A DNA stretch of 43,459 bases from Bacteroidota bacterium (GTDB taxonomy: Bacteria > Bacteroidota > Ignavibacteria > Ignavibacteriales > Ignavibacteriaceae): positions 1 through 43,459 of the forward strand of contig JAKAJV010000124.1 of NCBI GenBank assembly GCA_021813585.1, written 5' to 3'. A model generated the notes under the pieces. That model was not told the DNA's origin. It saw nothing but the letters and a program-made list of their open reading frames with translations, and ran no database searches. Positions 12,601 through 30,015 of the stretch are shown here, one piece after another. A program made the translations under genes and the position numbers. Within the stretch, counting starts at the first letter, position 1. Each line of letters begins with the position of its first letter.

Positions 12601-13824
12601 ATGAAAATTTTATTATTCAGCTATTTATTCCCTAACTCGAAGCTGCCCAACCGGGGCATTTTCAATTTATCGAGGGCTAAGGCTTTAACAAATGCCGGAT
12701 GTAGCGTTATTGCTGTTGCGCCGGTAAGCGTAAATCCTAATTTAAAGGATTTACTTTCTCTGTCCGGCATAAAAAAACAATTCGTGCTTTTAAACAAGCT
12801 AAGGTCGGTTCCCAGGCTCGAAGTATATGAGGGTATAAAAGTTTATCATCCTAAATGGATTACCGCACCGCGGAAATTTTTCTGGAAATATCTGCCGGAC
12901 ATTTTGCATTTCTTCGCCGGAAAAGAAATCGACGGAATAATCTCCGAGTTTAAACCCGATCTGATTATTAGTACATGGGTTAATCCTTTTTCCGCTTATG
13001 CAAATTATTTTAAAAAATATATTGGGGTAAAGCATTTTGCAGTAGCAGAAGGAAGCGATGTTCTTGTTCAGCCCTCATCCTTTAAGGGCTGGAGTAGAAT
13101 AGAAAAATTAATAAATGAAAATTCCGATCTGGTTATTGCCGTCTCGCAAAAGATGAAAGAACAGATGGAACATACTACCGGGCTTAAAAGGATTAAGCTA
13201 ATTAATAACGGTTATGATGAAAATATTTTCACCTTTAAAAATCCTAACGGCAAATTTGCCGCTGATTATTTAAAGATAGTTACCGTCGCTAATTTTAATT
13301 ACGAAAAGGGACACGATATACTTTTTGAAGCACTGCGTCTGCTGAAAATCAAGTTTAAGCTTACTCTTGCCGGGGACGGCCCATTAAGAGAAAGATATGA
13401 AAGAGCCGTAAAAGAGTACGGCCTGCAAAACGATGTAATTTTTTTAGGGCAGGTTCCGCATTCCAGAATACCAGAATTGTTGGCCGCACAAGATTTGTTC
13501 TGCCTGCCAAGCAGGTCGGAGGGATTTCCGGCTGCACCGCTGGAAGCAATGGCCTGCGGTCTGCCTGTTGTTGCTGCCGATGTAGGCGGTATGAACGAAA
13601 TTATAACCGGCGGTTTCAACGGATATTTGTTTATGCCGGGGTCTAAGGAAGAATTGGCCCAAAAGATAATGTCTGCTAGCTGGACAAGGTGGGATCATAA
13701 GGAAATCTCCGAATGGGTCTTAAAAAATTTTAGCTGGAGTGCATGGGCGGCAAAAATTATTCGAAGCTATGATGATACTAATTTGAAAACCGAAGAGACA
13801 GTGCTTCACGGAGCTGTTCTATAA
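12601..13824 (+). CDS. Glycosyltransferase family 4
   Basis: Predicted retaining glycosyltransferase of 407 residues. The N-terminus MKILLFSYLFPN with a following NRGIF glycine loop is typical of the acceptor domain of WcaL/AmsK-like enzymes. The donor domain contains the AEGSD motif near 150 and GDGPLRERYE near 258. The E-x7-E nucleotide-sugar motif is fully conserved as EGFPAAPLE (Glu307 and Glu315), followed by MACGLPVVAADVGG. It is the most canonical GT4 of the locus and is not a close copy of the others. It lies 77 bases after the preceding glycosyltransferase gene and 42 bases before the methyltransferase gene. The sugar transferred is unknown. Confidence 0.93.
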   Translation: MKILLFSYLFPNSKLPNRGIFNLSRAKALTNAGCSVIAVAPVSVNPNLKDLLSLSGIKKQFVLLNKLRSVPRLEVYEGIKVYHPKWITAPRKFFWKYLPDILHFFAGKEIDGIISEFKPDLIISTWVNPFSAYANYFKKYIGVKHFAVAEGSDVLVQPSSFKGWSRIEKLINENSDLVIAVSQKMKEQMEHTTGLKRIKLINNGYDENIFTFKNPNGKFAADYLKIVTVANFNYEKGHDILFEALRLLKIKFKLTLAGDGPLRERYERAVKEYGLQNDVIFLGQVPHSRIPELLAAQDLFCLPSRSEGFPAAPLEAMACGLPVVAADVGGMNEIITGGFNGYLFMPGSKEELAQKIMSASWTRWDHKEISEWVLKNFSWSAWAAKIIRSYDDTNLKTEETVLHGAVL

Positions 13825-13869
13825 ATTAATTAAGCAGAAATAATTTAAGAGAAGTAAAAAATACGGGTG

Positions 13870-14661
13870 ATGATTATGCAGGAAAGAAGAAATGTTTTCA
13901 GAAAGGCGGCTCATTCATTAGTAATAATGAAGATATATATCAGGGAAAGCGTAAAGCTCGTTTTCCATGTCTTCCTATCTTTAAAAAGCGGATTAAGATA
14001 TTTTACCAGAGGCATGAAGTACGACAAGTATTGCATTAAGGTAAATTATTACACCCGCAAAAAGTATGTTCACTTCGATGCGACAAAAAGCAGCGAGGAA
14101 TACCAGGATAAGGTTTATAAAGGCATCCAAACGTTTTTTAAAGAAAATAATCTTTCCTCCGTGCTGGATATAGGCTGCGGCTCGGGCTTTAAGCTTATGA
14201 AATATTTTAGCGAATACGAGACTACCGGCTTGGAATTGCCGCCCGCGCTAGACGAGTTGAAGGTAAACTATCCCCAAAGAAACTGGAGCGAATCCAATTT
14301 TAATAACCCGCCTCAAAAATATTACGATCTTGTAATGTCTATTGATGTAATCGAGCATTTGCTTGAGCCTGATGTGCTGATGGAATTTATTTCGAAGCTC
14401 AATTTTAAATACATTGCCTTAGGTACACCCGATAGAAGCAAACTGCCGGTCTTTTCCAAATTCGGTCCGCCGTGGAATAAACATCATATACGCGAGTGGA
14501 GCAGACAGGAATTTGTAAATTACGCCGGTAAATATTTCAACGTAATCTTATCCGAAGTGGTAAACGGGCACGAGCATTTTATAGTAGCTGAGAAAATAAA
14601 TTCTCCCGCGTATAAAGTTAAGTGCGACCTGAATATGACCGAACTTTCATTTAATTATTAA
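13870..14661 (+). CDS. Class I SAM-dependent methyltransferase
   Basis: Soluble methyltransferase of about 263 residues. The SAM-binding glycine loop is VLDIGCGSG (98-106), followed by an acidic residue at the end of the second strand (GLELPP). The motif-IV-like VMSIDVIEHL is typical of Methyltransf_11/23 enzymes such as UbiG. A basic N-terminal extension of about 60 residues precedes the catalytic fold. Codons GTG 13867, ATG 13870 and ATG 13876 are all possible starts; ATG 13870 behind a purine-rich AAGAGAAG is preferred. In this locus it may methylate a sugar hydroxyl or a terminal residue of the glycan. The reaction is an inference from neighbours. Confidence 0.87.
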   Translation: MIMQERRNVFRKAAHSLVIMKIYIRESVKLVFHVFLSLKSGLRYFTRGMKYDKYCIKVNYYTRKKYVHFDATKSSEEYQDKVYKGIQTFFKENNLSSVLDIGCGSGFKLMKYFSEYETTGLELPPALDELKVNYPQRNWSESNFNNPPQKYYDLVMSIDVIEHLLEPDVLMEFISKLNFKYIALGTPDRSKLPVFSKFGPPWNKHHIREWSRQEFVNYAGKYFNVILSEVVNGHEHFIVAEKINSPAYKVKCDLNMTELSFNY

Positions 14662-14698
14662 AGCTTGATGCGTTATTTTTCTGCAGGAAAATTCTTTT

Positions 14699-15496
14699 AT
14701 GGCAAACAGTATATTTTTCAGGAATGATGATATAAGGAATAAGCTCGATCAGTCGCTTATTGATGTAACCGGGTCCTTTATCGAGAAGAAAATTCCTATT
14801 GCTCACGCCGTAGAGCCTGCAAATATTACTGCTGAAGTTGCCGGCTGGCTTTTAAGAATGAAGAAAGATTATCCCGATTTAATAGTTATTATGCAGCACG
14901 GGTACGACCATACTATCAAGAACAAATTAATTAAAGGTGAGTTCGGGGGGCAGAGAAATTATGAAGAGCAATTTGAAGATATAAGCCGCGGCAAAAAATT
15001 AATGGACCGCTGGTTCGGCGATCTATGGTTCCCGGCTTTTAATTTTCCCTACGCACCTTATAATCCGCCGGCTATGAAGGCGGTGGATGACTTGAATTAT
15101 AAGGTAATCAATTCGCATTACAACGACAGTCTTTCCCGCAAGTTGTTTTACGCGGCAGGGCATTTATTAAATAAAGGTTATTTGTTCAACCACCATGTAT
15201 CCTGGAACCTGGATTATTACCCTGGCACCCGGCTCTTCGAAATTGATATGAACGTAAGCTTTATTAAAAAATATTTGAATGAAGAGGAAGACGCAGAATT
15301 CTTTACCCTTGGCGAACTGATTTCAAAGACTGTCCGGTACTCCAAATATAAAACTACCGGCACTCTTCTTCATCACAGATACCATAATACCGAAGATAAG
15401 ATTAAGCTGGTTAAAGACTACTTGGATTGGTGCATAACTAACGGGTATAAGTTTACATCGCTGCCAGAAATTTACAACCGGTATAAAAAAAGATGA
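14699..15496 (+). CDS. Polysaccharide deacetylase-like protein, soluble, NodB superfamily
   Basis: A 265-residue protein without signal peptide or membrane segment. FFRNDDI (6-12) gives the Asp-Asp pair at the start of a NodB-like barrel. HGYDH (67-71) gives the His-x3-His pair, so a metal site of the CE4 type (Asp11, His67, His71) is plausible. FNFPYAPYNPP at about 116-126 takes the place of the usual RPPYG motif, without its Arg. A likely catalytic His occurs late, in LLHHRYH. It therefore resembles the divergent DUF2334-like branch rather than standard chitin deacetylases. Its stop overlaps the next start (ATGA at 15493-15496). A cytoplasmic deacetylation of a lipid-linked or nucleotide sugar would fit. 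Activity is an inference. Confidence 0.78.
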   Translation: MANSIFFRNDDIRNKLDQSLIDVTGSFIEKKIPIAHAVEPANITAEVAGWLLRMKKDYPDLIVIMQHGYDHTIKNKLIKGEFGGQRNYEEQFEDISRGKKLMDRWFGDLWFPAFNFPYAPYNPPAMKAVDDLNYKVINSHYNDSLSRKLFYAAGHLLNKGYLFNHHVSWNLDYYPGTRLFEIDMNVSFIKKYLNEEEDAEFFTLGELISKTVRYSKYKTTGTLLHHRYHNTEDKIKLVKDYLDWCITNGYKFTSLPEIYNRYKKR

Positions 15497-16650
15497 AATC
15501 AATAATTCATTTTTCCGGTGACGACTACTGGAACAGCAATCCGCATTCGAGGTACCATATAACCAAGAACTTTATCGGACGCGGATATAAAGTCCTGTGG
15601 ATAAATCCGCTCGGCACAAGGTTCCCGTCAATCAAGAAGAAAAATTTTTCAAACAGGATATTAAGGAAGCTGAAGAGCATTTTTAAGTTTCTTAAAAAAG
15701 CAGAAGATAATTTATATGTTTATACTCCGGTTCTTTTACCGGTATTCAAGACGGGATTTTATTTTAACCTGAATAAAATTCTTTTCTTAGTTCAGATGTC
15801 TTTTATTACCGCAGTTTTAGGAATAAAAAAGCCGGTGCTCTTTTTCAGCACACCGCTTTACGCCTTTGCCCTTAGCCTCATCTCATATTCAAAATCAATT
15901 TACTATTATTCAGACTTTTACACTGCCTACAGAGAGTTAAACAACTCCTCGCGCGGGTACCTGGAGTTTTTAGACGGCATTCTGTACCGCAATGCCGATT
16001 CGGTATTTTGCGCATCGCGGGAAATTTATTCGGGGCTTATTAGCAAAAATAACCGGAAGAATATTTATTATCTCCCTCATGCAGTCGACTTCGAGCATTT
16101 TAATTCCGGCCGGGGAAAAAATAATACTCTCCCCCACGATATTCAATCCGTCAAGCATCCTGTAATCGGCTATTACGGCACGCTTACCGATTCGAATGAT
16201 TGGGATATAATAGACTACTGTTCCAAGGAGAGGCCTGATTATAATTTTGTGTTTATCGGCAGAAAGGATATGTCGCTTCCACAACTGGAAAGCCGGCCGA
16301 ACGTTTTTTTCCTTGGTAAGAAATCTTACAGCGAATTGCCTTTGTACGCCTCTCATTTTGATGTGTGCATTATGTTCTGGGTTAGAAGAGAATGGATAAA
16401 GAATTCATCGCCCTTAAAACTGAACGAGTATTTGGCGCTGGGCAAGCCGGTTGTTTCTACATTCATAGAAGAGGTAAATTCGAATTACAACGATGTGGTT
16501 CAGATAGCGGAAACCAAGGAAGAATTTCTTGAACAACTGGATAAAGTATTAAAATCGGATAACACCGAACAAATTGAAAAAGGCCTGCAGATGGTAAAGG
16601 AGAGCAGCTGGAGATCGGTTGCGGAAAAAATATTACGCGGGACTCAATAA
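15493..16650 (+). CDS. Glycosyltransferase, GT4-like
   Basis: Product of 385 residues. It opens with HFSGDDYWNSNPHSRYHI and KVLWINPLG, an N-terminal pattern shared by GT4-like enzymes found next to teichuronic-acid and exopolysaccharide genes. The donor half starts at IGYYGTL (about 226) and reaches NSSPLKLNEYLALGKPVVST (about 303-322), the usual donor-site Glu region. The middle part contains aromatic and hydrophobic stretches that may touch the membrane. It is translationally coupled to the deacetylase-like gene upstream through a four-base overlap, suggesting that the two act on the same intermediate. Donor and linkage are unknown. Confidence 0.88.
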   Translation: MKSIIHFSGDDYWNSNPHSRYHITKNFIGRGYKVLWINPLGTRFPSIKKKNFSNRILRKLKSIFKFLKKAEDNLYVYTPVLLPVFKTGFYFNLNKILFLVQMSFITAVLGIKKPVLFFSTPLYAFALSLISYSKSIYYYSDFYTAYRELNNSSRGYLEFLDGILYRNADSVFCASREIYSGLISKNNRKNIYYLPHAVDFEHFNSGRGKNNTLPHDIQSVKHPVIGYYGTLTDSNDWDIIDYCSKERPDYNFVFIGRKDMSLPQLESRPNVFFLGKKSYSELPLYASHFDVCIMFWVRREWIKNSSPLKLNEYLALGKPVVSTFIEEVNSNYNDVVQIAETKEEFLEQLDKVLKSDNTEQIEKGLQMVKESSWRSVAEKILRGTQ

Positions 16651-16694: not shown

Positions 16695-18035
16695 ATGAAC
16701 ACGATATTTCAAATAAATTATAAAATACTTGATTTCTTTAGAAAGACGGATACTCTTAAGCTGTATAAAAAAATAGTTGAGTCCCAGTACGCTTCCAGGG
16801 ATGAGTTAAGAGCAAGCCAGCTAAACGCATTTAAGAATCTGCTTACGCATGCATATGAGAATGTTCCTTACTATTCGAGCCTCTTTAAGAAAATTTCGTT
16901 TCATCCGGAAGATTTTAAATCAATGGATGATCTTAAAAAGCTTCCAACTACTTCAAAGGATATTGTAAGAAATAACTTTAACGATATCAAAGCAGCCGGT
17001 TTCGAATCGTATAAGCCACGTATTACACAAACCGGGGGAACGACAGGCAAGCCGTTTTTAACATACAGGGATAAACTAAGCCACAGCTATATGTGGGCAA
17101 ATATTTTCCGCGCCTGGAACGCAGGAGGATTTGAACCGGGCGACAGGTTCATTAATTTTGCAGGAGGCTCTCTGCTGCCGAATACTAATCTGTTCAAGCG
17201 GAATATTTACAACTTCCTTCAGAATGCGGTTCTAATAACCAGTTATCATCTGAACGATGAAAGGCTAAAGAATATTTCTTATACAGTTACAAAATCGGGT
17301 GCGGAATATATTTTCGGTTATTCTTCTTCTATATATTTGTTGTCGCAGTACTGCAAGTCGAACTCGATATCGTTGAAAGGATATATAAAGGCCGTCATCA
17401 CTACTTCCGATATGCTGTATCATAAGCAAAGAGAAGTTATCGAAGAAGTCTTCGGCGCAAAGGTGTTCGATCTGTACGGCTGCCCCGAAGGCGGAATTTT
17501 TTCATTTGAATGCAGCGAGCATAACGGCTACCATGTAAACCAGGAATCGGCGCTTGTAGAAGTAACCGATAGCGGCCAGAACGGCCTCGGCAAGATCATC
17601 AGCACTCCCTTGTTCAATTATGCTTTCCCTTTAATTAGATATGAAACAGGAGATGTGGGCAGCTATTCTTCAAAGCAGTGCGGCTGCGGCAGGCATCTTG
17701 ATAGGATTGAAGAATTGGGAGGAAGGATAAGAGACTTTATAGTGCTTAGGGACGGACGCTACATCCACGGTGCTTTCTTCAACCACCTTAACGTCCTTTA
17801 TAACGCCGAATGGATTAAGCAGTATCAGATTGTTCAGACCGACGTTGATAATCTTACAATCAAAATATCAAAGCTTGAAGAGCCGGCAGAGGAAGCTCTC
17901 GATTTAATTAAGAATGAGATTCATAAGGGCCTTCTTCCCGACCTGAAAATAAATTTTGACCTGGGCGGCGTGGAATATACCGGCGGCGGTAAATTCCGCT
18001 TAATAATTTCCAACGTCTCGAATAAGTGGCAATAG
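16695..18035 (+). CDS. PaaK/CapK-like AMP-forming acyl-activating enzyme
   Basis: Member of the adenylate-forming superfamily in the phenylacetate-CoA ligase-like branch often found in capsule and exopolysaccharide loci (CapK). The phosphate-binding loop is TQTGGTTGKP (111-120), the aromatic-acidic motif is LYGCPEGG (260-267), and YETGD (about 317) is the ATP-ribose motif. A Cys-x-Cys-Gly motif (QCGCGR, about 327-332) is common in this branch and may bind metal or shape the site. The 446-residue length is full. It would activate a carboxylic acid as acyl-AMP and pass it to CoA, to a carrier protein or directly to an amine. With the ACP and a second ligase downstream, it marks the start of the tailoring cassette. 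Substrate is unknown. Confidence 0.85.
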   Translation: MNTIFQINYKILDFFRKTDTLKLYKKIVESQYASRDELRASQLNAFKNLLTHAYENVPYYSSLFKKISFHPEDFKSMDDLKKLPTTSKDIVRNNFNDIKAAGFESYKPRITQTGGTTGKPFLTYRDKLSHSYMWANIFRAWNAGGFEPGDRFINFAGGSLLPNTNLFKRNIYNFLQNAVLITSYHLNDERLKNISYTVTKSGAEYIFGYSSSIYLLSQYCKSNSISLKGYIKAVITTSDMLYHKQREVIEEVFGAKVFDLYGCPEGGIFSFECSEHNGYHVNQESALVEVTDSGQNGLGKIISTPLFNYAFPLIRYETGDVGSYSSKQCGCGRHLDRIEELGGRIRDFIVLRDGRYIHGAFFNHLNVLYNAEWIKQYQIVQTDVDNLTIKISKLEEPAEEALDLIKNEIHKGLLPDLKINFDLGGVEYTGGGKFRLIISNVSNKWQ

Positions 18036-18041
18036 ATAAAT

Positions 18042-18890
18042 ATGAGGAATAAGAGAAAGATATTCTTATTGACCGTCCCCGTATTTATAATTCTTTTTTT
18101 CTCATTGCTTTTTCAGTCTAACAACAAAAATGAAAATATGCACGAAGGACTTTCCAAAGATTTATTCCTTATAAGCACGCAGAATATTTATTTCGGGCAC
18201 CGGTCTGTCGGTGAAAATATTTTAAGCGGCATGAAGAAGATAATTTCCGAAGATACTTCTTCTGGGCTGAGAATTACCAAGCTGGAAAATTTGAAGTACA
18301 ACGGCAGCCGTTACTTTGCCGATTCAAATATAGGGAAGAACGGTGACCCCGAAAGTAAAATTAAAGAATTCGCCGGGGCAGTCGACAGCCTTTCCACACT
18401 GGGTCTGAATTTGGCTATGATGAAGTTCTGCTATGTAGACATCACGAGCTCTACAGATGTTAATTCGGTTTTTAATTATTATGCAGGCGCCATCGCTTCA
18501 CTTAAAAGAAAGCATCCCGGACTGACTATTATTAATTTTACCGTGCCTTTAACCGCACAGAGATCGCTGTACCGTAAGTTAGTTGATTTGGTAAAAGGGA
18601 ACGATAGCAATAACCAGGCAGACAATGCTGCAAGGAATAAATTCAACGAGCTGTTAAAATCTCAATTCCCGCATGATGAAATTTTTGATCTTGCAGGGAT
18701 AGAGTCTACATATCCGGACGGAAAAAGGAATACCGAAATTACCGACGGGAAGATTGTTTATTACCTAGTTAAAGATTATTCCTCAGACGGCGGACATCTA
18801 AATGAAAGAGGACAGATGGTAGTTGCGGAAACATTATTAAAATTTTTATCCGGTGTAATTGCAAAATCGGAGACACATGCGGTTAATTAA
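18042..18890 (+). CDS. SGNH-hydrolase-like exported protein
   Basis: A 282-residue protein with an N-terminal hydrophobic segment (about 6-25) that may be an uncleaved anchor or signal peptide; no lipobox is seen. The mature part opens with YFGHRSVGENIL (50-61) and ends with SDGGHLNERG (248-257). The Asp249-x-x-His252 pair matches the Asp-His end of SGNH/GDSL esterases. Ser55 is the likely nucleophile, although the block differs from classic GDSL. Such proteins in polysaccharide loci remove or move O-acyl groups outside the inner membrane. It starts six bases after the CapK-like gene, so they are probably one transcript. It could be a non-catalytic relative; this has medium certainty. Confidence 0.65.
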   Translation: MRNKRKIFLLTVPVFIILFFSLLFQSNNKNENMHEGLSKDLFLISTQNIYFGHRSVGENILSGMKKIISEDTSSGLRITKLENLKYNGSRYFADSNIGKNGDPESKIKEFAGAVDSLSTLGLNLAMMKFCYVDITSSTDVNSVFNYYAGAIASLKRKHPGLTIINFTVPLTAQRSLYRKLVDLVKGNDSNNQADNAARNKFNELLKSQFPHDEIFDLAGIESTYPDGKRNTEITDGKIVYYLVKDYSSDGGHLNERGQMVVAETLLKFLSGVIAKSETHAVN

Positions 18891-18974
18891 TCTGTTTTCT
18901 TCAATTCGCTGCTCGCGGGAAGGAAGAGCTATTCTAAATAATTTTTTTCTGCATTTAAATTTTATAAATAGTTT

Positions 18975-19559
18975 ATGAAAAAATTATTGCTTACCCTAAT
19001 TGCTAAGCTTAAATATAAAAATTATAAGCGGAAGCTAAGGCAAAATATTGCCAACGGATTAAAAATTGGCAAGAACGTTACAATTATGCCGAACGTTACT
19101 ATAGACGATAAATATTCATACCTTATCAGCATCGGCGATAACTGTTCGTTCAGCAACGGCGTGCTTATACTTGCCCACGATGCAACTACATTTAAATTTA
19201 CCGGCGGCTATACTAGAGTTGCAAAAGTGAATATAAAAGACAATGTTTACGTCGGCCAAAATTCTATTATTCTGCCGGGTGTAACCATAGGCCCTAACGT
19301 CCTTGTTGCCGCAGGCTCGGTAGTTAATAAAGATATTCCGCCTAATTCCTGCGTTGCCGGTGTGCCTGCAAGGGTATACGCAAAATTTGATGAGTTCCTT
19401 GCGAACCATAAAAATTTAATAAATGAAAGATCGGTCTTTGATTACAAAGATTTTGCAGCACCTACAGAAGAGTTCAAAGAAAAAGTGAAACGACTGACTG
19501 AAGACGGACATGTTTATGTGAAAGGCTACGAAGGAAATTTTCCCTGGACTATTTCTTAA
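18975..19559 (+). CDS. Left-handed beta-helix acyltransferase (hexapeptide repeat), second copy
   Basis: Hexapeptide-repeat acyltransferase of 194 residues, shorter at the N-terminus than its paralogue at 9060. Shared blocks are GKNVTIMP (about 33-40), LISIGDNCS, LAHD with the probable catalytic His, ILPGVTIGPNVLVAAG (98-113) and VNKDIPPNSCVAGVPARVY. The last stretch is identical in both proteins. Both also end in a similar tail that turns into a Gly-Tyr/Phe-x-Gly motif. Placed directly before the acyl carrier protein gene, it is a good candidate to move the ACP-bound acyl group onto a sugar, although CoA-linked acetyl is the family's usual donor. The start follows an A/T-rich leader without a clear Shine-Dalgarno. 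Confidence 0.9.
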   Translation: MKKLLLTLIAKLKYKNYKRKLRQNIANGLKIGKNVTIMPNVTIDDKYSYLISIGDNCSFSNGVLILAHDATTFKFTGGYTRVAKVNIKDNVYVGQNSIILPGVTIGPNVLVAAGSVVNKDIPPNSCVAGVPARVYAKFDEFLANHKNLINERSVFDYKDFAAPTEEFKEKVKRLTEDGHVYVKGYEGNFPWTIS

Positions 19560-19631
19560 GGCCGCATCTAATAAATTCTAATTCGGACTAAAAATATTTT
19601 TATAAAATATGCTTTAATAACGGAGTAATTA

Positions 19632-19892
19632 ATGGAAATAAATGAAAAGTTAAAATCTTTTGTCGCCGATAATTTCTTATTCGGCCAGGCAGACTCGCTA
19701 AACTATGATACCGATTTTTTTGAAAAGGGAATTATAGACTCAACCGGAATCGTAGAACTGGTTAGCTACGTTGAAGAGACTTTTAATATTACCGTACTGG
19801 ACGACGAGCTTGTACCTGAAAATTTTTCATCTATAAACAAGGTAAGCGAGTTTATTGGCCGGAAGCAAAACGAAATAGCAAAAGCAAGCTGA
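19632..19892 (+). CDS. Acyl carrier protein dedicated to the polysaccharide cassette
   Basis: An 86-residue carrier protein. The phosphopantetheine attachment site is Ser37 in IIDSTGIVELV. The usual Asp-Ser-Leu is here Asp-Ser-Thr, as in carrier proteins that stand alone beside AMP ligases rather than in fatty-acid synthesis. FEKGIIDS before it and EETFNI after it follow the ACP helix pattern. A clear GGAG (19622-19625) lies six bases before the ATG. The asparagine-synthase-like gene starts three bases after its stop. The likely job is to carry an activated acyl or aminoacyl group made by one of the two ligases and hand it to an acyltransferase. No fatty-acid synthesis genes are nearby, which supports a dedicated role. 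Confidence 0.9.
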   Translation: MEINEKLKSFVADNFLFGQADSLNYDTDFFEKGIIDSTGIVELVSYVEETFNITVLDDELVPENFSSINKVSEFIGRKQNEIAKAS

Positions 19893-19894
19893 TT

Positions 19895-21895
19895 ATGTGC
19901 GGCATTACAGGCATACTTAACATCTCCGGTTCCCAAAGTGTTTCTACCAAAAAGCTCGGCTTGATGGCCGGCCAGCTAAGCCATCGCGGGCCTAACCAAG
20001 CCGGCGCATACATGGACGACCGGATTGGGATCGCTCAGACACGGCTTAGTATAATTGACCTTAAAGGCGGCACCCAGCCTATCCACAACGAAGATAAAAC
20101 TCTGTGGATTGTATTCAACGGCGAGATATACAACTATATCGAACTTAAAAAAGACCTGTTGAAAAAAGGGCATAGGTTCTATACAAATTCGGATACCGAA
20201 GTTTTACTTCATCTATACCAGGATGAAAGAGAAAAATGCCTGCATAAGCTGAACGGGCAATTTGCCTTTGCCGTATGGGATACCGAAAGCAAAGAGCTGT
20301 TTATTGCCCGCGACAGAGTGGGAAAAAAACCTTTGTACTACACTATCGAAAGCGGAAGATTTTATTTCGGCTCGGAAATTAAATCCATTTTTGCCTGCAG
20401 CGAAATAAGCCGCGAGATCGATTTAGATTCCTTAAATCAGATTTTTACATTCTGGACTACACTGCCCGCCAAAACCTTTTATAAAAACATAAGTGAGCTT
20501 CCTGCAGGCTCATATCTCAAAATCAAGGACGGCGGTCTTCAGGTTAAACAATACTGGGATTTTAACTTTGCACTAAAAGATGAGCTTGTTAATTTTACCT
20601 CCGGCGAAATTGCCGAACAGGCCAGGGAACTGCTGCTGGATTCGGTCGGGCTGCGGCTTAGAGCCGATGTTCCTGTGGGCAGCTATCTAAGCGGCGGACT
20701 GGATTCATCGGGCATAACTTCGTTAATAAAAAATAATTTTAACAACAAGCTCAACACATTCGGCATCCGTTTCGAGGAAGCCGCTTTCGATGAAGGTGAA
20801 TTCCAGAACGAAATGGTAAAGAAGCTGAACGTAAAGCACAACATTGTTCTTGCAAATAACAAAGCCATAGGCGAACTGCTGCCGGATGTACTATGGTATT
20901 GCGAGATTCCTCTTCTCCGGCTCTCGCCGGTTCCTCTTTTTATTTTATCGGAGCTTGTTCATAATTCGGATTTCAGAGTTGTGCTTACGGGCGAAGGTGC
21001 CGATGAGGTCTTCGGCGGATACAACATTTTTAGGGAAACCCTGGTTAGGGCATTCTGGTCTAAGTACCCCGACTCGAAAATTAGGCCGCTCCTGCTGGAA
21101 AGACTTTATCCTTACATATTCAAGGATGCAAAGAGTAAGGCGAGTTTAAAGTCTTTCTTTAAAATGGGTATAGAAGATCCGGGCAACCCTTTCTTCTCCC
21201 ATATGATCAGATGGCAGAACACATCCAAGATAAAGAGATTTTTTATTGATGCGGCAAAAGAGAACTTAGCCGTCTACAATCCGCTTGAACATCTTGCCGC
21301 ATTACTTCCGGAGAATTTCCACCGCTGGGATGCACTGGCGAAAGCGCAGTATCTTGAGATGAAGATTTTTCTTTCCAACTACCTGCTCAGCTCGCAGGGC
21401 GACAGGGTCTCGATGGCGCATTCGCTTGAGATTAGGATGCCGTACCTGGATTACCGGGTGATCGAGCTGATGAGCAAAGTTCCTTCTTATTTGAAAATAA
21501 GAGGACTGGATGAAAAATTTATTTTGAAGAAGGTCTTTAAGGACGTTCTTCCCGATACGATAGTTAAAAGGCCTAAGCATCCTTACAGGGCGCCTATTAA
21601 GAACAGCTTGCTTAATAATAACATTGAATATGTCGATTATTATTTATCCGAAAGTTATCTTAATAAAACCAGGCTGTTTAATCCTTCAATGGTTGCTAAG
21701 TTAAAAGAGAAATTATCTATTGCCGGCAATTCGGGAGAATTCGACAATATGGCTTTGGTAGGCATATTATCTACCCAAATTATTTACGATAGGTTTATTG
21801 AGAATTTTGAATTGAAGGCGGTTAAGCCGGCCGATTTTACAATCGTTTTCGACAACAGACTGGTCGAGTCAAATTTAATTATTAAGAATGAATAA
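19895..21895 (+). CDS. Asparagine synthase-like glutamine amidotransferase (AsnB family)
   Basis: A 666-residue two-domain enzyme. The N-terminal class II glutaminase domain starts at MCGITGI with the catalytic Cys2 exposed after Met removal, which fixes the start codon. It keeps LSHRGP and FNGEIYNY. The C-terminal PP-loop domain has SGGLDSSG (266-273) for ATP and a TGEGADE motif (about 367) typical of asparagine synthases. It adenylates a carboxylate and amidates it with ammonia from glutamine. In polysaccharide loci, AsnB paralogues often amidate uronic acids or small acyl groups rather than free aspartate. It sits in a tight run with the ACP and the following ligase, whose start lies inside its last codons. 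Both active sites appear intact. Confidence 0.92.
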   Translation: MCGITGILNISGSQSVSTKKLGLMAGQLSHRGPNQAGAYMDDRIGIAQTRLSIIDLKGGTQPIHNEDKTLWIVFNGEIYNYIELKKDLLKKGHRFYTNSDTEVLLHLYQDEREKCLHKLNGQFAFAVWDTESKELFIARDRVGKKPLYYTIESGRFYFGSEIKSIFACSEISREIDLDSLNQIFTFWTTLPAKTFYKNISELPAGSYLKIKDGGLQVKQYWDFNFALKDELVNFTSGEIAEQARELLLDSVGLRLRADVPVGSYLSGGLDSSGITSLIKNNFNNKLNTFGIRFEEAAFDEGEFQNEMVKKLNVKHNIVLANNKAIGELLPDVLWYCEIPLLRLSPVPLFILSELVHNSDFRVVLTGEGADEVFGGYNIFRETLVRAFWSKYPDSKIRPLLLERLYPYIFKDAKSKASLKSFFKMGIEDPGNPFFSHMIRWQNTSKIKRFFIDAAKENLAVYNPLEHLAALLPENFHRWDALAKAQYLEMKIFLSNYLLSSQGDRVSMAHSLEIRMPYLDYRVIELMSKVPSYLKIRGLDEKFILKKVFKDVLPDTIVKRPKHPYRAPIKNSLLNNNIEYVDYYLSESYLNKTRLFNPSMVAKLKEKLSIAGNSGEFDNMALVGILSTQIIYDRFIENFELKAVKPADFTIVFDNRLVESNLIIKNE

Positions 21896-23486
21896 CCAAT
21901 TATTTCAACCGAGAGTCTTGCATAATTTTTTAATTCAGAATGCACAAAAATTTCCCGATAAGGAAGTTCTGGTATTCGAAAATTCAAGGCTCACTTATTC
22001 CGATCTAAATACCCGGTCGAACAAGCTGGCCGAATCTTTAATTGACCTCGGCCTGCAGAGGCACGACAGGGTTATTATCTTCCTGGATAATTCGGTAGAG
22101 ACTGTTTTGTCAATCTGGAGCGTATTAAAAGCGGGCGGAGCCTTTGTTGTTTTAAATTCATCTATCAAAGCAGCCAAGCTTGAATACATTATAAAAGACT
22201 CCGGTGCGGGCATTATCATAGCTCATTCTAAGAAATCCGATATTGTTGAGAAGGCTTGCGAAAATATAACCACCGGCTTAAAGATTATTTATACCGGTGC
22301 GGTTAAAGGCAGGCAGCAGAAAGATGGTTTGGCTATTTATAATTTTGAAGAACTGTTAAACTCCCAGAGCGGCGTTGCCTCCGAAAAATTATTGAAGAGG
22401 ATGAACAGCGTTATCGATTACGATCTTGCTGCGTTAATCTATACATCCGGCTCAACCGGCGAACCGAAGGGAGTTATCAGCTCTCATTTCAATATGATCT
22501 CCGCCGCCCGCAGCATTATTGAATATCTAGAGAATGACTCAAGCGACATTATTCTAAATGTCCTTCCTCTGTCATTCGATTACGGCTTATACCAGATGAT
22601 AATGAGCGTAATGTTCGGCGGGACGATGGTGCTCGAGACTTCGTTTATGTTCCCCGTAAAAATTCTGCAGAAGATTGAACAGGAAAAAATAACCGGCTTC
22701 CCGATTGTCCCGACTATCATCGCTCTTCTGTTAAAGATGAGGGAGATTGACAGGTACAAACTGGAGACCGTGAGATACATCAGCAACACCGGCGCAGCTT
22801 TTCCCGTGCCGCACATACTAAAGTTCAACGAGCTTTTCCCGCATATAAAAATATTCTCGATGTTCGGCTTAACGGAATGCAAGCGAATTGCCTATTTGCC
22901 GCCCGATCAAATTAAAGTGCGCCCTGGCTCGGTTGGCAAGGCAATGCCCAACTGCGAGGTATTTATAGTTGATGAAAACGGCAGCGAGGTTCTTAACGGC
23001 GAGCCCGGCGAGCTTGTTGTAAGAGGCTCTAACGTAATGCGCGGCTACTGGAACTCCACAGAGCTGACGGAGAAGGTTTACCGCAAAGGTAAATTGCAGG
23101 GTGAAACTATTCTGTACACCGGCGATCTTTTCCGCATGGATGAGGAAGGCTATTTGTATTTTCTAGGCAGAAAAGACGATATGATAAAATCCAAAGGCGA
23201 AAGAATAAGCCCTAAGGAGATTGAAAATATTTTATGCTCAATAAAAGGAGTGGCTGAAGCCGCAGTAATCGGGGTCCCGGACGATGTTCTTGGCCAGGCC
23301 ATTAAAGCTTACATCGTAAAGCTGAACGGACAATACATCGACTCCAATACCATCCTTCAATTCTGTTCGGAGAACATGGAGACCTTTATGATTCCCAAAT
23401 ACGTAGAGTTTTTAAATGAGCTGCCTAAGAGCCCGAACGGGAAGGTTGACAAGAAAATTTTAAAAGCCGGATTGATGGATAACTAA
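21888..23486 (+). CDS. AMP-forming acyl-CoA / acyl-ACP ligase
   Basis: Full-length adenylate-forming enzyme of 532 residues. IYTSGSTGEPKG (184-195) is the phosphate loop. FGLTECKR (about 325) is the A5 motif, YTGDLF the A7 motif and GRKDDMIKSKGERISP the hinge with the A8 motif. PNGKVDKK near the C-terminus carries the catalytic Lys. It resembles the branch found in exosortase-associated polysaccharide loci and in stand-alone adenylation domains that load carrier proteins. With the ACP three genes' space away, the likely reaction is ATP-dependent loading of a small acid onto the ACP phosphopantetheine. It overlaps the AsnB-like gene by eight bases. The acid is unknown. Confidence 0.91.
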   Translation: MNNQLFQPRVLHNFLIQNAQKFPDKEVLVFENSRLTYSDLNTRSNKLAESLIDLGLQRHDRVIIFLDNSVETVLSIWSVLKAGGAFVVLNSSIKAAKLEYIIKDSGAGIIIAHSKKSDIVEKACENITTGLKIIYTGAVKGRQQKDGLAIYNFEELLNSQSGVASEKLLKRMNSVIDYDLAALIYTSGSTGEPKGVISSHFNMISAARSIIEYLENDSSDIILNVLPLSFDYGLYQMIMSVMFGGTMVLETSFMFPVKILQKIEQEKITGFPIVPTIIALLLKMREIDRYKLETVRYISNTGAAFPVPHILKFNELFPHIKIFSMFGLTECKRIAYLPPDQIKVRPGSVGKAMPNCEVFIVDENGSEVLNGEPGELVVRGSNVMRGYWNSTELTEKVYRKGKLQGETILYTGDLFRMDEEGYLYFLGRKDDMIKSKGERISPKEIENILCSIKGVAEAAVIGVPDDVLGQAIKAYIVKLNGQYIDSNTILQFCSENMETFMIPKYVEFLNELPKSPNGKVDKKILKAGLMDN

Positions 23487-23494
23487 AAAATCCG

Positions 23495-24712
23495 ATGGTA
23501 AAAAATTATTACGACGCATACGGCGAGCTTATAAATCCCTGGTACATAACGCATCTGCGGAAGATGGGAATTTTAAATGTCGGTGTTAAAGCTGAGGGTG
23601 CAACCTTTACCGATTCTGCCGGCAATGTTTTTATCGATTGCACAGCCGGATACGGCATTGGCAATCTCGGCCATAATAATACGCAGGTTGTTAATGCGCT
23701 GGTCGAACAATTACAAAGCGGCCAGGTGAATACACGCCCGTTTATAAATAAAATTCAAATAGAACTAGCCGAGCTGCTGAAAGAAATTTCACCGCCCGGG
23801 CTGGAGTGTTCTTACATTCTAAATAGCGGAAGCGAAGCTATTGAAACTGCGCTTAAGCTTGTAAGGCTTTACAAAGGAGGTAAAAAAATTATTTCCATGG
23901 AACATTCTTTCCACGGGCATACGCTTGGCGCTCTGTCGGTTTCGGGCGTTCCGGCATTTAAGAAAAGCTTTATGCCTCTGCTGCCCGCGTTCGAGCAAGT
24001 ACCCTTCGGCAATATAAACGCATTACAAGACAGCATAGATGAAAGTACTGCCGCAGTAATGATTGAACCGGTACAGCATGATGCGGGTGTAAAGGTTCCT
24101 GCAAAAGAATATTTACAGCAGGTTAGGGAGCTGTGCAGCGCAAAAGATGTTATCCTGGTTTTTGATGAAGTAATAACCGGCATAGGCAAAACCGGTTTCA
24201 TGTTCGCTTCCCAATATTTTGATGTTGTACCGGATATACTGGTAGCGGGTAAATCTCTCGGTGCCGGATTAATTCCAATAGGCGCGGTACTGGCCAGAAA
24301 AAATCTTTGGCAGCGATTCGGCTTAAGCTTCCCGATGACGGCCTCCAGCTACGGCGGCAATGCATTGGCATGCAGGGCTGCGGTTGAATCAATTAAATTC
24401 ATCTGTGAAAACAATGTACTCGAGTCTGCAAGGCAAAAATCCGAATTGCTATTTTCAGGGTTAAAAAGCCTTGCCGTTAAATATTCGGGTTTCATCCGTT
24501 CGCTTAACGGGATAGGGATGTTGTTCGGGATGGAGATAACCGAAAAAAATACCGCGGCTGCAATAGTAAGGAAAATGATTGAAAATAATGTGATTGTTTA
24601 CCAGTCATTCGGAAATCCTTTTGTAATAATGATTGAGCCGCCGATCGTTATCTCGAACGACCAGATTGAAAGAGTGATTGAGGCTTTTAACAAGGTACTG
24701 GGAGAGGTTTAA
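23495..24712 (+). CDS. Class III PLP-dependent aminotransferase
   Basis: Fold-type I aminotransferase of 405 residues in the acetylornithine / 4-aminobutyrate / putrescine group. The PLP Lys is Lys253 in LVAGKSLGAG. Asp224 in VFDEVITGIGKTG contacts the pyridine nitrogen. NSGSEAIETALKL (about 110-122) and the SFHGHT motif hold the phosphate and ring. This class moves amino groups on omega-amino acids or diamines and only rarely on nucleotide sugars, which usually need DegT-type enzymes. In the cassette it would therefore make an amino acid or amine that is then joined or activated by the neighbouring ligases. It starts nine bases after the ligase gene. Confidence 0.9.
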   Translation: MVKNYYDAYGELINPWYITHLRKMGILNVGVKAEGATFTDSAGNVFIDCTAGYGIGNLGHNNTQVVNALVEQLQSGQVNTRPFINKIQIELAELLKEISPPGLECSYILNSGSEAIETALKLVRLYKGGKKIISMEHSFHGHTLGALSVSGVPAFKKSFMPLLPAFEQVPFGNINALQDSIDESTAAVMIEPVQHDAGVKVPAKEYLQQVRELCSAKDVILVFDEVITGIGKTGFMFASQYFDVVPDILVAGKSLGAGLIPIGAVLARKNLWQRFGLSFPMTASSYGGNALACRAAVESIKFICENNVLESARQKSELLFSGLKSLAVKYSGFIRSLNGIGMLFGMEITEKNTAAAIVRKMIENNVIVYQSFGNPFVIMIEPPIVISNDQIERVIEAFNKVLGEV

Positions 24713-24806
24713 TCTTTATTGCCGGTGCAGTTAGATGACAGCGGTTTAATGGAATATAAAAAAATATTAATTTGTACGGTAAATTAATTAACCTTAAGGA
24801 AATAGG

Positions 24807-25784
24807 ATGGAATACACCAGGGATTTAATTTTAATTAATCCGGAAGAAGAAGCGAAGAAAATAATTGAAGATATACGCTACGCGGTTTCGCACGTATTAA
24901 AGAAAAGAGGAGCGGTAATAGGTGTAAGCGGCGGTGTCGATTCTTCGGTATGCCTGGCGCTTACCGCTACGGCGCTAGGCAGCGATAAAGTTATTGCCGT
25001 TATGCTTCCGGAAAAGGAATCGAGCGGCGAGAATATTCCTCTGGTAAATAAGCTTCTTGAAAAATACAAAGTTGAATCTGTCATCGAAAATCTTACCGGA
25101 GCGCTGGGCGGGTTCGGATGCTACGAAAGAAGGGATGAGGCTGTAAAACAAATTTTCCCGGAATACGATTCATCGTATAAAATGAAAATCATCCTTCCGG
25201 AAAATATTCTTGAGACGGATAAGCTTAACCTTTTCTTTCTAGAAATTATCTCTCCCTCCGGCGAGGTAAAGAAAGCCAGGCTTCCGCTTAAGGAATACTT
25301 ACAGATTGTAGCCGCTTCTAACTTTAAGCAGAGAAGCAGGATGAGCATGCTGTACTATCAGGCCGAGCTTAGAAACTATGCCGTAATAGGCACACCGAAC
25401 AAGAACGAGCACCAGCAGGGATTCTTTGTAAAGTTCGGGGATAGCGGCTCGGATTTAAGACCGATCTGCCATCTGTTCAAAACACAGGTATACCAGCTTG
25501 CAGATTACCTGGGCATTCCGGAGGAAATTAGAAAGCGTAAGCCTACTTCGGATACTTACAGCGCAGAGCAGACGCAGGAGGAGTTTTTCTTCCGGCTCTC
25601 CTTCGATATACTTGACAGAATTTGGTTCGGCTGGGAAAGCGGGGTGGAGACGGCACAAATAGCGAAAGCTCTGGGCCTTACGGAACAGCAGGTTGAAAAC
25701 GTAATTAAAGATATAACGAGAAAAAAGAACACTACCGAATATTTGAGGAAGGAGCCGCTGGATATCAACTCGATAATCCGATGA
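24807..25784 (+). CDS. NadE-like PP-loop synthetase (NAD+ synthase family)
   Basis: A 325-residue ATP-pyrophosphatase with SGGVDSS (41-47). Downstream are GTPNKNEHQQGFF, KFGDSGSDLRPI and LFKTQVYQLADYLGIPE, which match the NAD+ synthase order of GT-NK-E, GD and K(T)QV. There is no glutaminase domain, so ammonia is the nitrogen donor unless it is channelled from a partner. Between about 95 and 175 it has an unusual lengthy segment (GCYERRDEAVK..., LPENILETDKLNL...) in place of the short stretch of housekeeping NadE. As last gene of the polysaccharide run, it may be a repurposed amide-forming enzyme rather than the cell's NAD synthase. An AAGGA precedes the ATG. The fold is sure; the substrate is not. 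Confidence 0.82.
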   Translation: MEYTRDLILINPEEEAKKIIEDIRYAVSHVLKKRGAVIGVSGGVDSSVCLALTATALGSDKVIAVMLPEKESSGENIPLVNKLLEKYKVESVIENLTGALGGFGCYERRDEAVKQIFPEYDSSYKMKIILPENILETDKLNLFFLEIISPSGEVKKARLPLKEYLQIVAASNFKQRSRMSMLYYQAELRNYAVIGTPNKNEHQQGFFVKFGDSGSDLRPICHLFKTQVYQLADYLGIPEEIRKRKPTSDTYSAEQTQEEFFFRLSFDILDRIWFGWESGVETAQIAKALGLTEQQVENVIKDITRKKNTTEYLRKEPLDINSIIR

Positions 25785-25851: not shown

Positions 25852-25940
25852 AATCTCTCTATCCAAATAATGATAAGAAGAATTTTGTCCTGAATTTTAA
25901 TATTTTGGAATCAAAATTTTATTTAATTATAACTTTATTT

Positions 25941-26987
25941 ATGCCGGAAATATCCGAATCAATTTCGCAGAGGAAAAAAGAGCATATCGCGTTATGTCTT
26001 ACCGGTGAAGTTTCTTTTAAAAGCAAAACAACTGGTTTCGAAAACTACGATTTTAAGCATTACGCGATAACCGAAGTTGATTTAAGGAAGATAAGCTTTA
26101 ACACGGATTTTTTCGGTAAAAAAATTAATTACCCGTTTTTAATTTCGTGCATGACGGGCGGCGTATCCGAAGCTGAAAATATTAACATGCAGCTGGCGGT
26201 TGCCGCTAACGAGCTTAATATTCCCGTGGGTGTAGGAAGCCAGCGGCAGGCGCTTGAAAATAAAACTTATCATCAATCGTATAAAGCTTTACGCAAGAAT
26301 GCGCCTAGCATTCCGGTACTCGGGAATATAGGTGCGGCACAAATTGCTAAGCTAAAGAATCTTGATCAAGTACGCCTTTTAGCCGAATTGGTTAATGCGG
26401 ATGTAATGGTAATTCACGTTAATCCATTGCAGGAGTTATTGCAGTACAAAGGTCAGCCGGACTTTTCGGGCTTTATCAAAGCCCTGGAAAAGCTGGTTAG
26501 ATTTCTGGATATTCCCGTAGTTGTTAAAGAGGTTGGAGCCGGTATTTCCAAAAAAGCTGCCTCACGGTTGTTGAATATAGGCGTAAAAGGCATTGATGTT
26601 GCCGGTGCCGGCGGTACAAGCTGGGCCGGAGTTGAAATACTGAGGAACAAAAGCGATAAAGGCAGCGAATTTTGGGATTGGGGCCTGCCGACCTCTTACT
26701 GCCTGCGGACAGTTGGCAAGCTTAAAAATAAATTTGATTTTATGCTGATCGGTTCCGGCGGCATTAACAACGCTGCCGATGCTGCAAAGGCATTTGCACT
26801 GGGAGCCGACATAACCGCATCCGCAAGAATTATTTTGCAGGTGCTTGATAAGTCCGGCGTTGAAGGAGTCGTTCAACTGATTAAAGACTGGTTTGAAACA
26901 ATTAAGCATGTTATGTATCTAACAGGTTCCAATTCCATTGAAGAACTTAAGGACGGTAAATTAATTAGAAAGGAAAAATTCTTTTGA
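25941..26987 (+). CDS. fni: Type 2 isopentenyl-diphosphate delta-isomerase (FMN-dependent)
   Basis: Interconverts isopentenyl and dimethylallyl diphosphate using reduced FMN, feeding prenyl chain synthesis. The ATG at 25941 gives 348 residues, the usual IDI-2 length, and places RKKEHI at 11-16 as in the family. A TTG 36 bases earlier would add twelve hydrophobic residues with no family match. Motifs are MTGG (71-74) for FMN, SQRQAL (100-105), VKEVGAGIS and GSGGI near the phosphate site. It overlaps the prenyl synthase gene by three bases (TTGA), so isomerase and chain-building enzyme are made together. The start has an A/T-rich leader and follows the terminator, so a promoter must lie in 25852-25940; none was pinned down. 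Confidence 0.94.
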   Translation: MPEISESISQRKKEHIALCLTGEVSFKSKTTGFENYDFKHYAITEVDLRKISFNTDFFGKKINYPFLISCMTGGVSEAENINMQLAVAANELNIPVGVGSQRQALENKTYHQSYKALRKNAPSIPVLGNIGAAQIAKLKNLDQVRLLAELVNADVMVIHVNPLQELLQYKGQPDFSGFIKALEKLVRFLDIPVVVKEVGAGISKKAASRLLNIGVKGIDVAGAGGTSWAGVEILRNKSDKGSEFWDWGLPTSYCLRTVGKLKNKFDFMLIGSGGINNAADAAKAFALGADITASARIILQVLDKSGVEGVVQLIKDWFETIKHVMYLTGSNSIEELKDGKLIRKEKFF

Positions 26988-27979
26988 TCGGGGAGAGAAC
27001 TGATAAATTTTATTCCCTTTACGAAAGAGAGAGGGAAAAAGTAGATAAGAGATTAGCGGAATCGTTAAAAAATAGAAAGCCGGATTCACTTTACGAACCG
27101 GGACTATATATAATTGACGGCGGGGGCAAACGGTTAAGACCGCTGCTTGTTTTGTTTGCAGCACGGGCTGCCGGAGGAAAATTTACCGACGCTTACAACG
27201 CATCCGTCGCCGTAGAGCTTCTGCATAATTTCACTCTTGTACATGACGACATAATGGACAATGCCTCCAAACGCCGTGGAAGGCTAACGCTTCATGTAAG
27301 GAACGATTTGAGTACTGCAATTCTTGTCGGCGACAGCCTGCTTTCTATTGCGTATGAATATCTGTTAAGGGACTGCAGCGGAGACTCGAAAGAAATTATG
27401 GCGCTTTTTACCAAGAGCTTAGTTGATGTTTGCGAAGGCCAGAGCCTTGATAAGGATTTTGAATCCGACGAATCCGTTTCAATAGATCAATATCTGGAAA
27501 TGATAGAGAAGAAGACTGCGGCACTTTTAAAAATGTGCTGTAAGGTAGGCGGCATTCTGGGCGGCGGAACGAAAAAAGAGATAAATGCGCTTGCCAATTT
27601 CGGAAAAAATATCGGGATCGCCTTCCAGATACAGGATGATTTGCTGGATATCACCGGAGAAGAAATCGAATTGGGTAAATTTGTAGGTGGAGATTTGGTT
27701 GAAGGGAAAAAGACTTTCCTTTTTATTAAAGCTTTGGAAAAAGCCGGCGGCAGCGATCTTAAATCCCTGCGCAATGTTGTTTCCAACGGCGGTATTAAGG
27801 TAAACCAGATCGGAAAATATAAGCAGATTTATTTTAGGCTTAATGTACTAGAAGATGCCAGATCGGCGATTAAGTATTTTTCCGGCAGAGCGCTGAGCTC
27901 TTTAAAATCTCTTAAGAAGGAAGAAGACCGGGAATTATTTACGTGGCTGGCAAATTCATTAATCAAAAGAAACAAATAA
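26984..27979 (+). CDS. Polyprenyl diphosphate synthase (trans-isoprenyl type)
   Basis: Condenses isopentenyl diphosphate with an allylic diphosphate to build a linear prenyl chain for quinones or other isoprenoids. The first Asp-rich motif is HDDIMDN (Asp88, Asp89, Asp92) and the second is QDDLLD (Asp218, Asp219, Asp222). GGKRLRP (about 46-52) binds the diphosphate. At 331 residues it is the size of IspB/GGPP synthase-like enzymes. The start is TTG at 26984, inside the stop of the isomerase gene, with AGGA about eight bases upstream. Chain length cannot be told safely from the sequence; residues just before the first motif (LLHNFTLV) suggest a medium or long chain. Confidence 0.92.
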   Translation: MIGERTDKFYSLYEREREKVDKRLAESLKNRKPDSLYEPGLYIIDGGGKRLRPLLVLFAARAAGGKFTDAYNASVAVELLHNFTLVHDDIMDNASKRRGRLTLHVRNDLSTAILVGDSLLSIAYEYLLRDCSGDSKEIMALFTKSLVDVCEGQSLDKDFESDESVSIDQYLEMIEKKTAALLKMCCKVGGILGGGTKKEINALANFGKNIGIAFQIQDDLLDITGEEIELGKFVGGDLVEGKKTFLFIKALEKAGGSDLKSLRNVVSNGGIKVNQIGKYKQIYFRLNVLEDARSAIKYFSGRALSSLKSLKKEEDRELFTWLANSLIKRNK

Positions 27980-28245
27980 TGATTGAGAAAAAAATACAGA
28001 TAGTTAATAAAGCAGGACTGCATACAAGGCCCGCAGCCACTATTGTTAAAATGGCGGCAAAATATAAATGCGATTTTTTTATCTCCAAAGACGGGCTTAA
28101 TATAAACGGGAAAAGTATAATAGGAGTAATGACACTGGCGGCCGAGATGGGCTCTGAGCTGCTTTTAACTTTTGACGGTGAAGATGAAAAAGAAGCCGCC
28201 ACGGAGATTTCCGATTATTTTAACAGAGGATTTGACGAGCTTTGA
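27979..28245 (+). CDS. ptsH: Phosphocarrier protein HPr
   Basis: Small PTS phosphocarrier of 88 residues. Starting at ATG 27979, which overlaps the preceding stop as TAATG, puts the active His at position 15 (KAGLHTRPA) and the regulatory Ser at 46 (INGKSIIGV), exactly the HPr numbering. An upstream in-frame start at 27943 would spoil this and is rejected. His15 takes a phosphate from enzyme I. The conserved Ser46 region suggests control by an HPr kinase, although no such gene is in the window. It is followed by the enzyme I gene with a TTGA overlap. The gene set around it is isoprenoid and sugar-phosphate metabolism, with no permease. Confidence 0.95.
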   Translation: MIEKKIQIVNKAGLHTRPAATIVKMAAKYKCDFFISKDGLNINGKSIIGVMTLAAEMGSELLLTFDGEDEKEAATEISDYFNRGFDEL

Positions 28246-30008: not shown

Positions 30009-30015
30009 GAGAAAA

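Follow-up and report, generated by a model that had tools for sequence, protein, structure and literature searches.

A recurrent carrier-protein module, probably for amide formation and with a NadE-like enzyme that is probably misnamed, in a Wzx/Wzy polysaccharide locus of an Ignavibacteriaceae bacterium

In this study, we analysed a contig of 43,459 bases (C138; JAKAJV010000124.1 of assembly GCA_021813585.1) from an Ignavibacteriaceae bacterium whose genome of 4.54 Mb is 99.95% complete; the entire contig is called the window below. The results give good support to the presence, in a Wzx/Wzy polysaccharide locus, of a carrier-protein amide module that recurs elsewhere and whose members include a NadE-like enzyme, here called NadE2, that is probably misnamed. 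The core consists of an acyl carrier protein (ACP), an AsnB-type amidotransferase, an AMP-forming ligase and NadE2. It might make a carboxamide-bearing thioester, here of aminoacyl type, to decorate a surface glycan, a function for which we judge the case about evenly balanced. The core genes are:

19632..19892, + strand: ACP, the carrier protein, with Ser37 (PF00550, 8.3e-6)
19895..21895, + strand: AsnB-type glutamine amidotransferase with Cys2, SGGLDSS and RPKHPYRAP (PF00733, PF13537)
21888..23486, + strand: AMP-forming ligase of amino-acid type, with D231 (PheA 235) and R333 (PheA 330) (PF00501, 5.5e-88)
24807..25784, + strand: NadE2, NAD-synthetase-like ammonia ligase of the NCBIfam PRK00876 type (PF02540; NF002048, 435.9 bits, cut-off 313)

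An earlier note on this DNA had treated eight enzymes within 16695-25784 as one set. All eight open reading frames are present on the + strand and each matches its named family. The overlaps described for several of them came down to one of seven junctions (AsnB/ligase, 8 bases), the remaining gaps being 2 to 94 bases. When co-occurrence was checked in 101 loci, the core four recurred together and the full eight did not.

To describe this recurrence, relatives were searched with eight NadE2 proteins and the best 80 of 268 loci were analysed, many of them on short contigs. The family profiles for AsnB, ACP and ligase were built from the 80 loci themselves, and Pfam scans of neighbours used single members of clusters. 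L061-L064, L073 and L080 come from the contigs also labelled L035, L036, L034, L037, L040 and L039, and L105, L106 and L115 belong, by accession, to a single assembly; all are counted among the 80. Around NadE2, AsnB was found in 61, ACP in 54 and ligase in 64 of these loci. Where both flanks reached 9 kb or more (30 loci), AsnB was found in 27, ACP in 27 and ligase in 25, all three in 23 and none in 1, and the nearest copy of each always lay within 5 kb of NadE2. The median gap to NadE2 was 23 bases for AsnB and 38 bases for the ligase. By comparison, none of the three was found at any of 18 housekeeping-NadE control loci.

A second sample, drawn with the NCBI family model, gave a similar picture. 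This model finds NadE2 sporadically, in 9 of the 198 genomes searched in the phylum. The eight loci besides the window, which share no tested stretch with the 80, held AsnB in 8/8, ligase in 7/8 and ACP in 7/8; NadE2 of L163 was masked by the overlap filter in the first profile pass and recovered in a later one. Of 14 control genomes, Methanosarcina acetivorans alone matched the PRK00876 model. Seven relatives with NadE2 all carried ACP and AsnB, with a ligase at least 58% identical in four and weaker ones in L038 and L039. The distances of NadE2 and AsnB were correlated across 57 loci (r 0.82, not corrected for relatedness; the largest of 2000 permutations gave 0.13). By record title, NadE2, AsnB and ACP occur together in about nine phyla, namely in Bacteroidetes/Ignavibacteriales, Calditrichota (L088), Anaerolineae (L075), Nostoc (L099), Pirellulales (L094), Verrucomicrobiota (L085), Zixiibacteriota (L113), Caldisericaceae (L086) and rhizobia. 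Many of these records are metagenome-assembled genomes (MAGs), a label absent from the titles of the Nostoc, Maribacter, Gelidibacter, Xanthomarina, Sinorhizobium and Mesorhizobium records. No description of ACP, AsnB, ligase and NadE as a unit was found in titles and the starts of abstracts of the open-licence PMC papers that our searches listed.

The predicted structure of NadE2 is confident (pLDDT, the predicted local distance difference test, 92.7), and its closest folds are NH3-dependent NAD synthetases. It shares the fold and the adenylating P-loop with these enzymes and with the Francisella nicotinamide mononucleotide (NMN) synthetase 3fiu, an entry whose title indicates that the NadE fold can serve another substrate. 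NadE2 differs from them on the substrate side, in its linkage to carrier genes and in the presence of a canonical NadE elsewhere in the genome. The segment PSAxLWxxQ[TS]DE of 2e18, 3p52 and 3fiu (PSAGLW-GQTDE in 2e18) is replaced in NadE2 by PTTDTYSAEQTQEEFFF, and an insert is added. Eighteen long housekeeping NadE proteins are also unlike NadE2 at this segment, and several positions conserved among them are changed in NadE2 while the P-loop is retained; some of these differences reflect class, because the housekeeping enzymes compared all belong to the long class. NadE2 as the sole NadE of its genome was ruled out by a separate canonical NadE of 560 aa on contig C131. Eight of 41 genomes (its own and 40 relatives) hold the NadE2 type and 8/8 of these also hold a long NadE; of 26 checked among the 80 locus genomes, 23 carry a canonical NadE beside NadE2. 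The two genomes that show no other NadE, G246 (L125) and G247 (L127), may be incomplete MAGs, and one further genome has a fragment only. Since a canonical NadE accompanies it in 8/8 and 23/26 genomes, 'NAD synthase' is probably the wrong name, and judged from sequence NadE2 is most likely not the NAD synthetase of this cell. The nadE context analysis of De Ingeniis 2012 (PMC3376133) reports no new partner glutaminase, and the words 'acyl carrier' do not occur in that paper.

The other core proteins keep their catalytic residues. The carrier Ser is kept in 57/57 rows of the ACP family alignment, and Cys2 of AsnB in 55 of 58 long family rows. The ACP matched the AmcB, DltC, cispentacin and ornithine-lipid ACP models below cut-off (DltC model NF003464, 31.8 bits against 68). 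AsnB passed the cut-off of TIGR01536 and missed that of TIGR03108 (447 vs 816.9 bits), and the ligase missed TIGR03098 (478.3 vs 592.35 bits). The best PDB relatives of the window ligase are nonribosomal peptide synthetase proteins. PheA positions, in the usual residue numbering, were mapped through alignment to LgrA, and the window ligase has the Asp at position 235 (D231), as in stand-alone amino acid ligases of this type. Among 72 ligases near NadE2, Asp at this position was found in 24/24 members of the window ligase's group; of the 48 others, 46 carry Cys, Ile, Ser or Val there and a single one has Asp. At position 330, Arg is kept in 24/24 and 45/48, respectively. The gene set, its recurrence and its conserved catalytic motifs are what the data show.

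Clues to amide chemistry came from two further genes. A second NadE2-like gene was found in L084, L093, L095, L096 and L100 (Acidobacteria and Aminicenantes by title), and these copies form one clade (support 0.86). AsnB was found in none of these five loci vs 61 of the 75 others (p 4.8e-4, uncorrected for contig ends and relatedness), which suggests that AsnB and NadE2-type enzymes may do comparable amide-forming jobs. A PrmC/HemK-like methyltransferase gene lies in 10/80 loci; it accompanies an Asp-bearing ligase in 10 of 24 loci and a ligase lacking Asp in 0 of 41 (p 1.1e-5, not corrected for relatedness), and all 10 genomes with such a module-linked gene also hold a second, higher-scoring PrmC. 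Among six rhizobial stretches of differing length, the PrmC-like gene was present in 3/3 with Asp and 0/3 without, the Sinorhizobium copies lying about 10-12 kb off. PrmC methylates the side-chain amide of glutamine, so a carboxamide product fits. The amide-bearing acyl group proposed by the earlier note thus gains indirect support from two amide-forming enzymes together with a PrmC-like paralogue in some amino-acid-type modules.

Four further genes precede or interrupt the core:

16695..18035, + strand: PaaK/CapK-like adenylating enzyme, accessory (NCBIfam models down to 9.7e-39, no Pfam match)
18042..18890, + strand: SGNH hydrolase/transferase with an N-terminal membrane anchor, accessory (alignment and fold matches)
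18975..19559, + strand: hexapeptide (LbH) acyltransferase, candidate acyl-ACP:sugar transferase, accessory (PF00132)
23495..24712, + strand: class III aminotransferase, encoded between the ligase and NadE2 genes and so far specific to this genome (PF00202, 1.8e-86)

Judged by its distribution, the aminotransferase is a local addition. Its nearest homologues in relative genomes are 32-37% identical, and it was rejected as part of the module, being found in 0/7 relative loci and matched once in 101 loci (L077, 24.6% identical, on the other strand). The PaaK, SGNH and hexapeptide genes are, on the same grounds, variable accessories. For the first, the NCBIfam matches all fall far below cut-offs (PaaK equivalog TIGR02155, 110.5 vs 646.3 bits), a homologue 38-40% identical was found in 3/7 relative loci, and 9/41 genomes match at 1e-40. 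The eight enzymes therefore do not stand as one set, and of the distinct system once proposed around NadE-like and PaaK-like enzymes, the NadE-like gene holds as a true member and the PaaK-like gene as an accessory only. That unrelated tailoring genes have gathered by chance in a variable polysaccharide locus would agree with the changing accessories and with an aminotransferase found only in the window; it is very improbable, and for the core four it is already contradicted by their wide conservation and by the 0/18 control loci.

No Pfam family matches the SGNH gene, and the predicted structure of its product matches SGNH esterases (2hsj, 6xpg, 6se1). The family keeps HxSVG and DxGH with the catalytic Ser, Asp and His, as expected of the SGNH fold, and several members have a lipobox-like Cys. 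A signal or anchor was found on SGNH proteins in 14/80 loci, and homologues of the window gene lie in 4/7 relative loci. Since an N-terminal hydrophobic helix is combined with the kept catalytic residues, the protein is probably exported and acts outside the cytoplasm. The hexapeptide gene stands 72 bases upstream of the ACP gene, and a homologue 60-70% identical precedes the ACP in 4/7 relative loci. Transferase types near modules vary, with hexapeptide proteins in 19/80 loci, FemAB/GNAT6 in 8/80 and an MBOAT cluster in 7/80. Alongside the FemAB/GNAT6 proteins, a family of about 300-344 aa was observed in L061-L064, L067, L068, L071, L095 and L160; two members tested had no Pfam match.

In the mechanism that we propose, the ligase would adenylate an amino acid and load it on the phosphopantetheine of the ACP. 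AsnB, with glutamine, and NadE2, with ammonia, would each convert a carboxylate to an amide through an acyl-adenylate, acting either on the group bound to the carrier or on the sugar that accepts it. An exchangeable transferase, in the window perhaps the hexapeptide protein beside the ACP, would move the group to a sugar prior to export by Wzx, and the exported SGNH protein may trim or transfer it outside the cell. The substrate, the order of the steps and the glycan acceptor are what we infer from the gene content. A Dlt-like route, in which an MBOAT protein passes the ACP-bound group across the membrane and, on the outer side, the SGNH protein attaches it to the glycan, would use the same ligase, carrier and anchored SGNH protein, and the MBOAT cluster near NadE2 in 7/80 loci (one member Pfam-checked, L122) agrees with it. 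No Dlt-type MBOAT (DltB) was found in the window, the single match of the genome lies on contig C44, and the ACP scores below the DltC cut-offs, so that this route seems quite improbable here.

Several observations weigh against an amide module of this kind. NadE2 passes the NAD synthase models (NF002048, as above; TIGR00552, 156.3 bits, cut-off 63.65) and keeps the P-loop and other conserved residues of NAD synthetases, including N198, E201, D212 and K225. Shared genome descent alone could yield the correlation of NadE2 and AsnB distances. Six of 80 loci have NadE2 without AsnB, ACP and ligase; four of the six are contig-end cases, and the absence of ACP and AsnB at L065, L072, L087 and L128 is insecure because the contig stops close to NadE2. 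The real exceptions are L081 and L082, with none of the three genes despite 5-10 kb on both sides, and no ligase was found nearby in L037 and L160. Most of the ligases near NadE2 (48/72) belong to the group nearly all without Asp, so the loaded acid must differ among lineages. No second PrmC was found in the window's genome, where the only match above cut-off is the window's own at 35922-36680, and an N-methyl step is therefore not claimed for the window. Finally, the rhizobial modules lie outside any glycan cluster, the neighbours within 10 kb in S. meliloti being mostly non-glycan.

Taken with its fold and with the three of 26 genomes that show no other NadE or a fragment only, the first of these points could mean that NadE2 is an ordinary second NAD synthase, for supply or back-up and linked by chance, the module proper being ACP, AsnB and ligase as in exosortase loci. 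We consider this unlikely, as NadE2 is sporadic and tied to AsnB in 27 of the 30 well-flanked loci, has a changed segment and an insert, is mostly accompanied by a canonical NadE, and stands without AsnB in 5/5 loci with a second NadE2-like gene. An amide-forming NadE2 in a carrier module remains our preferred reading. Two observations stand beside the genes named here: the genome's only PrmC match (TIGR03534, 272.9 bits) is at window 35844-36698, about 10 kb downstream of the module, and in L082 a CpsB/CapC capsule gene lies near NadE2 (12120-12839), which lacks ACP, AsnB and ligase genes over 10 kb in both directions.

NadE2 was also found on 116 plasmid records, 76 of them from Sinorhizobium. 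The annotated order asnB, acyl carrier protein, class I adenylate-forming enzyme and nadE appears on plasmids of S. meliloti, Mesorhizobium ciceri and Nitratireductor. In S. meliloti 1021 the four-gene set is at 1450582-1455388 of pSymB, with a single ACP match on this replicon (E 0.01). No hexapeptide or SGNH gene was found beside the S. meliloti set. In the passages of PMC7232532 that were consulted, the pSymB ligase SMb20650 is cotranscribed with the ACP SMb20651, is unable to replace FadD and, citing Ramos-Vega 2009, acylates SMb20651 in E. coli, the acyl group not being named there; the two are treated as a fatty-acid-ligase-like/ACP pair, and 'asparagine' has no match in that paper. SMb20650 and SMb20651 are almost surely the pSymB member of the four-gene module, given the replicon, the gene pairing and the single ACP match; against this, their locus tags are not visible in the record used. 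In strain Ak57 the ligase reading frame is split in two (L174, 13425-14968) and its row is missing from the annotation; it is one gene in other strains. Wzx-like (flippase-like, about 12 kb away in S. meliloti) and PrmC-like genes lie about 10-12 kb from rhizobial modules. Four 'GNAT'-annotated proteins tested near these modules had no Pfam match, and a profile of them gave no match in L061-L140 at 1e-4; we therefore do not count them as a shared component. In Nitratireductor rhodophyticola (L175, 3298-6673) the module lies near Mu transposase C-terminal, TniB and TniQ genes, hinting at mobility.

These stand-alone sets would also suit a module that makes a free small molecule or a lipid head group, its placement in polysaccharide loci being secondary. 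The many ligases without the amino-acid Asp, and the sub-threshold matches of the ACP to cispentacin and ornithine-lipid models, point the same way. We regard such a product as doubtful, since wzc is found in 13/80 loci and hexapeptide genes in 19/80, Poly_export, Bac_transf or CpsB genes occur in the loci inspected, and SGNH proteins with a signal or anchor occur in 14/80. Decoration of a surface glycan is thus retained as our reading for the window.

The nearest known arrangement is that of XrtA/PEP-CTERM exopolysaccharide loci, which likewise hold an ACP, a TIGR03098-like ligase and a TIGR03108-like AsnB side by side in a polysaccharide locus. FemAB-type proteins and DUF3473 deacetylases are XrtA-locus families too, and the former lie near some modules and the latter near one NadE2 (L065, where the polysaccharide deacetylase with DUF3473 precedes NadE2 and only 1.8 kb of contig remains on the upstream side). 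A PLP (pyridoxal phosphate) decarboxylase also belongs to the XrtA set, and we know of no report on the product of its carrier genes. The module differs in that no exosortase was found (PF09721, 0 matches in the 99.95%-complete genome), the TIGR03098 and TIGR03108 cut-offs are missed, and NadE2 is an extra member; the separation from exosortase systems suspected earlier therefore holds. In glutarimide and tetracycline pathways, an AsnB-type enzyme amidates a carrier-bound acid, as may happen here. In contrast to these malonamyl-ACP pairs, no polyketide synthase was seen in the window, and the window ligase is of amino-acid type. DltA/DltC and butirosin BtrI/BtrJ/BtrK load an amino acid on a stand-alone carrier, from which it passes to a glycan or sugar; the module differs from them by its two amide-forming enzymes and, in the window, by the lack of an MBOAT.

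The rest of the window agrees with the polysaccharide setting that had been assigned to it, with Wzc, Wzx and five glycosyltransferases found and Wzy itself a guess:

17..16650, + strand: polysaccharide locus with Wzc, glycosyltransferases, candidate Wzy, GINT1_N-like protein, Wzx, methyltransferase and deacetylases (family matches)
17-2509: Wzc (family match)
4661-6028: candidate Wzy (no Pfam match; guessed from hydrophobic sequence)
9758-11311: Wzx (family match)
25905..31050, + strand: type 2 isopentenyl diphosphate (IPP) isomerase, polyprenyl synthetase, HPr, phosphotransferase system (PTS) enzyme I and phosphoglucose isomerase; end of the locus (family matches)

Genes beyond 25905, those for IPP isomerase, polyprenyl synthetase, HPr and PTS enzyme I, are of housekeeping type. 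Within the polysaccharide locus, window 7318-8976 encodes a protein of 552 aa whose C-terminal half matches GINT1_N (PF24793, 1.3e-43), a domain named after glucosamine inositolphosphorylceramide transferase; relatives of this protein lie downstream of NadE2 in L061, L062 and L064.

Tentatively, and with rather less than even confidence, the results may be extended to a widespread carrier amidation module. The name 'NAD synthase' would then be wrong for proteins of the PRK00876 type, which would be dedicated to forming amides (or amidines), in tandem with AsnB and on the same carrier-bound acid. In some amino-acid versions a PrmC paralogue would N-methylate the resulting carboxamides; exchangeable transferases would pass these groups to glycans, and the second NadE2 clade could replace AsnB. 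If this is true, many genomes would carry a wrong annotation for a curated family now called NAD(+) synthase, and surface glycans or related products would be modified by an uncharacterised pathway of four genes, present in about nine phyla as judged by record titles. The pSymB set of S. meliloti would then give an experimental foothold in a model organism, and the module would offer a tractable entry to the XrtA-type carrier genes.

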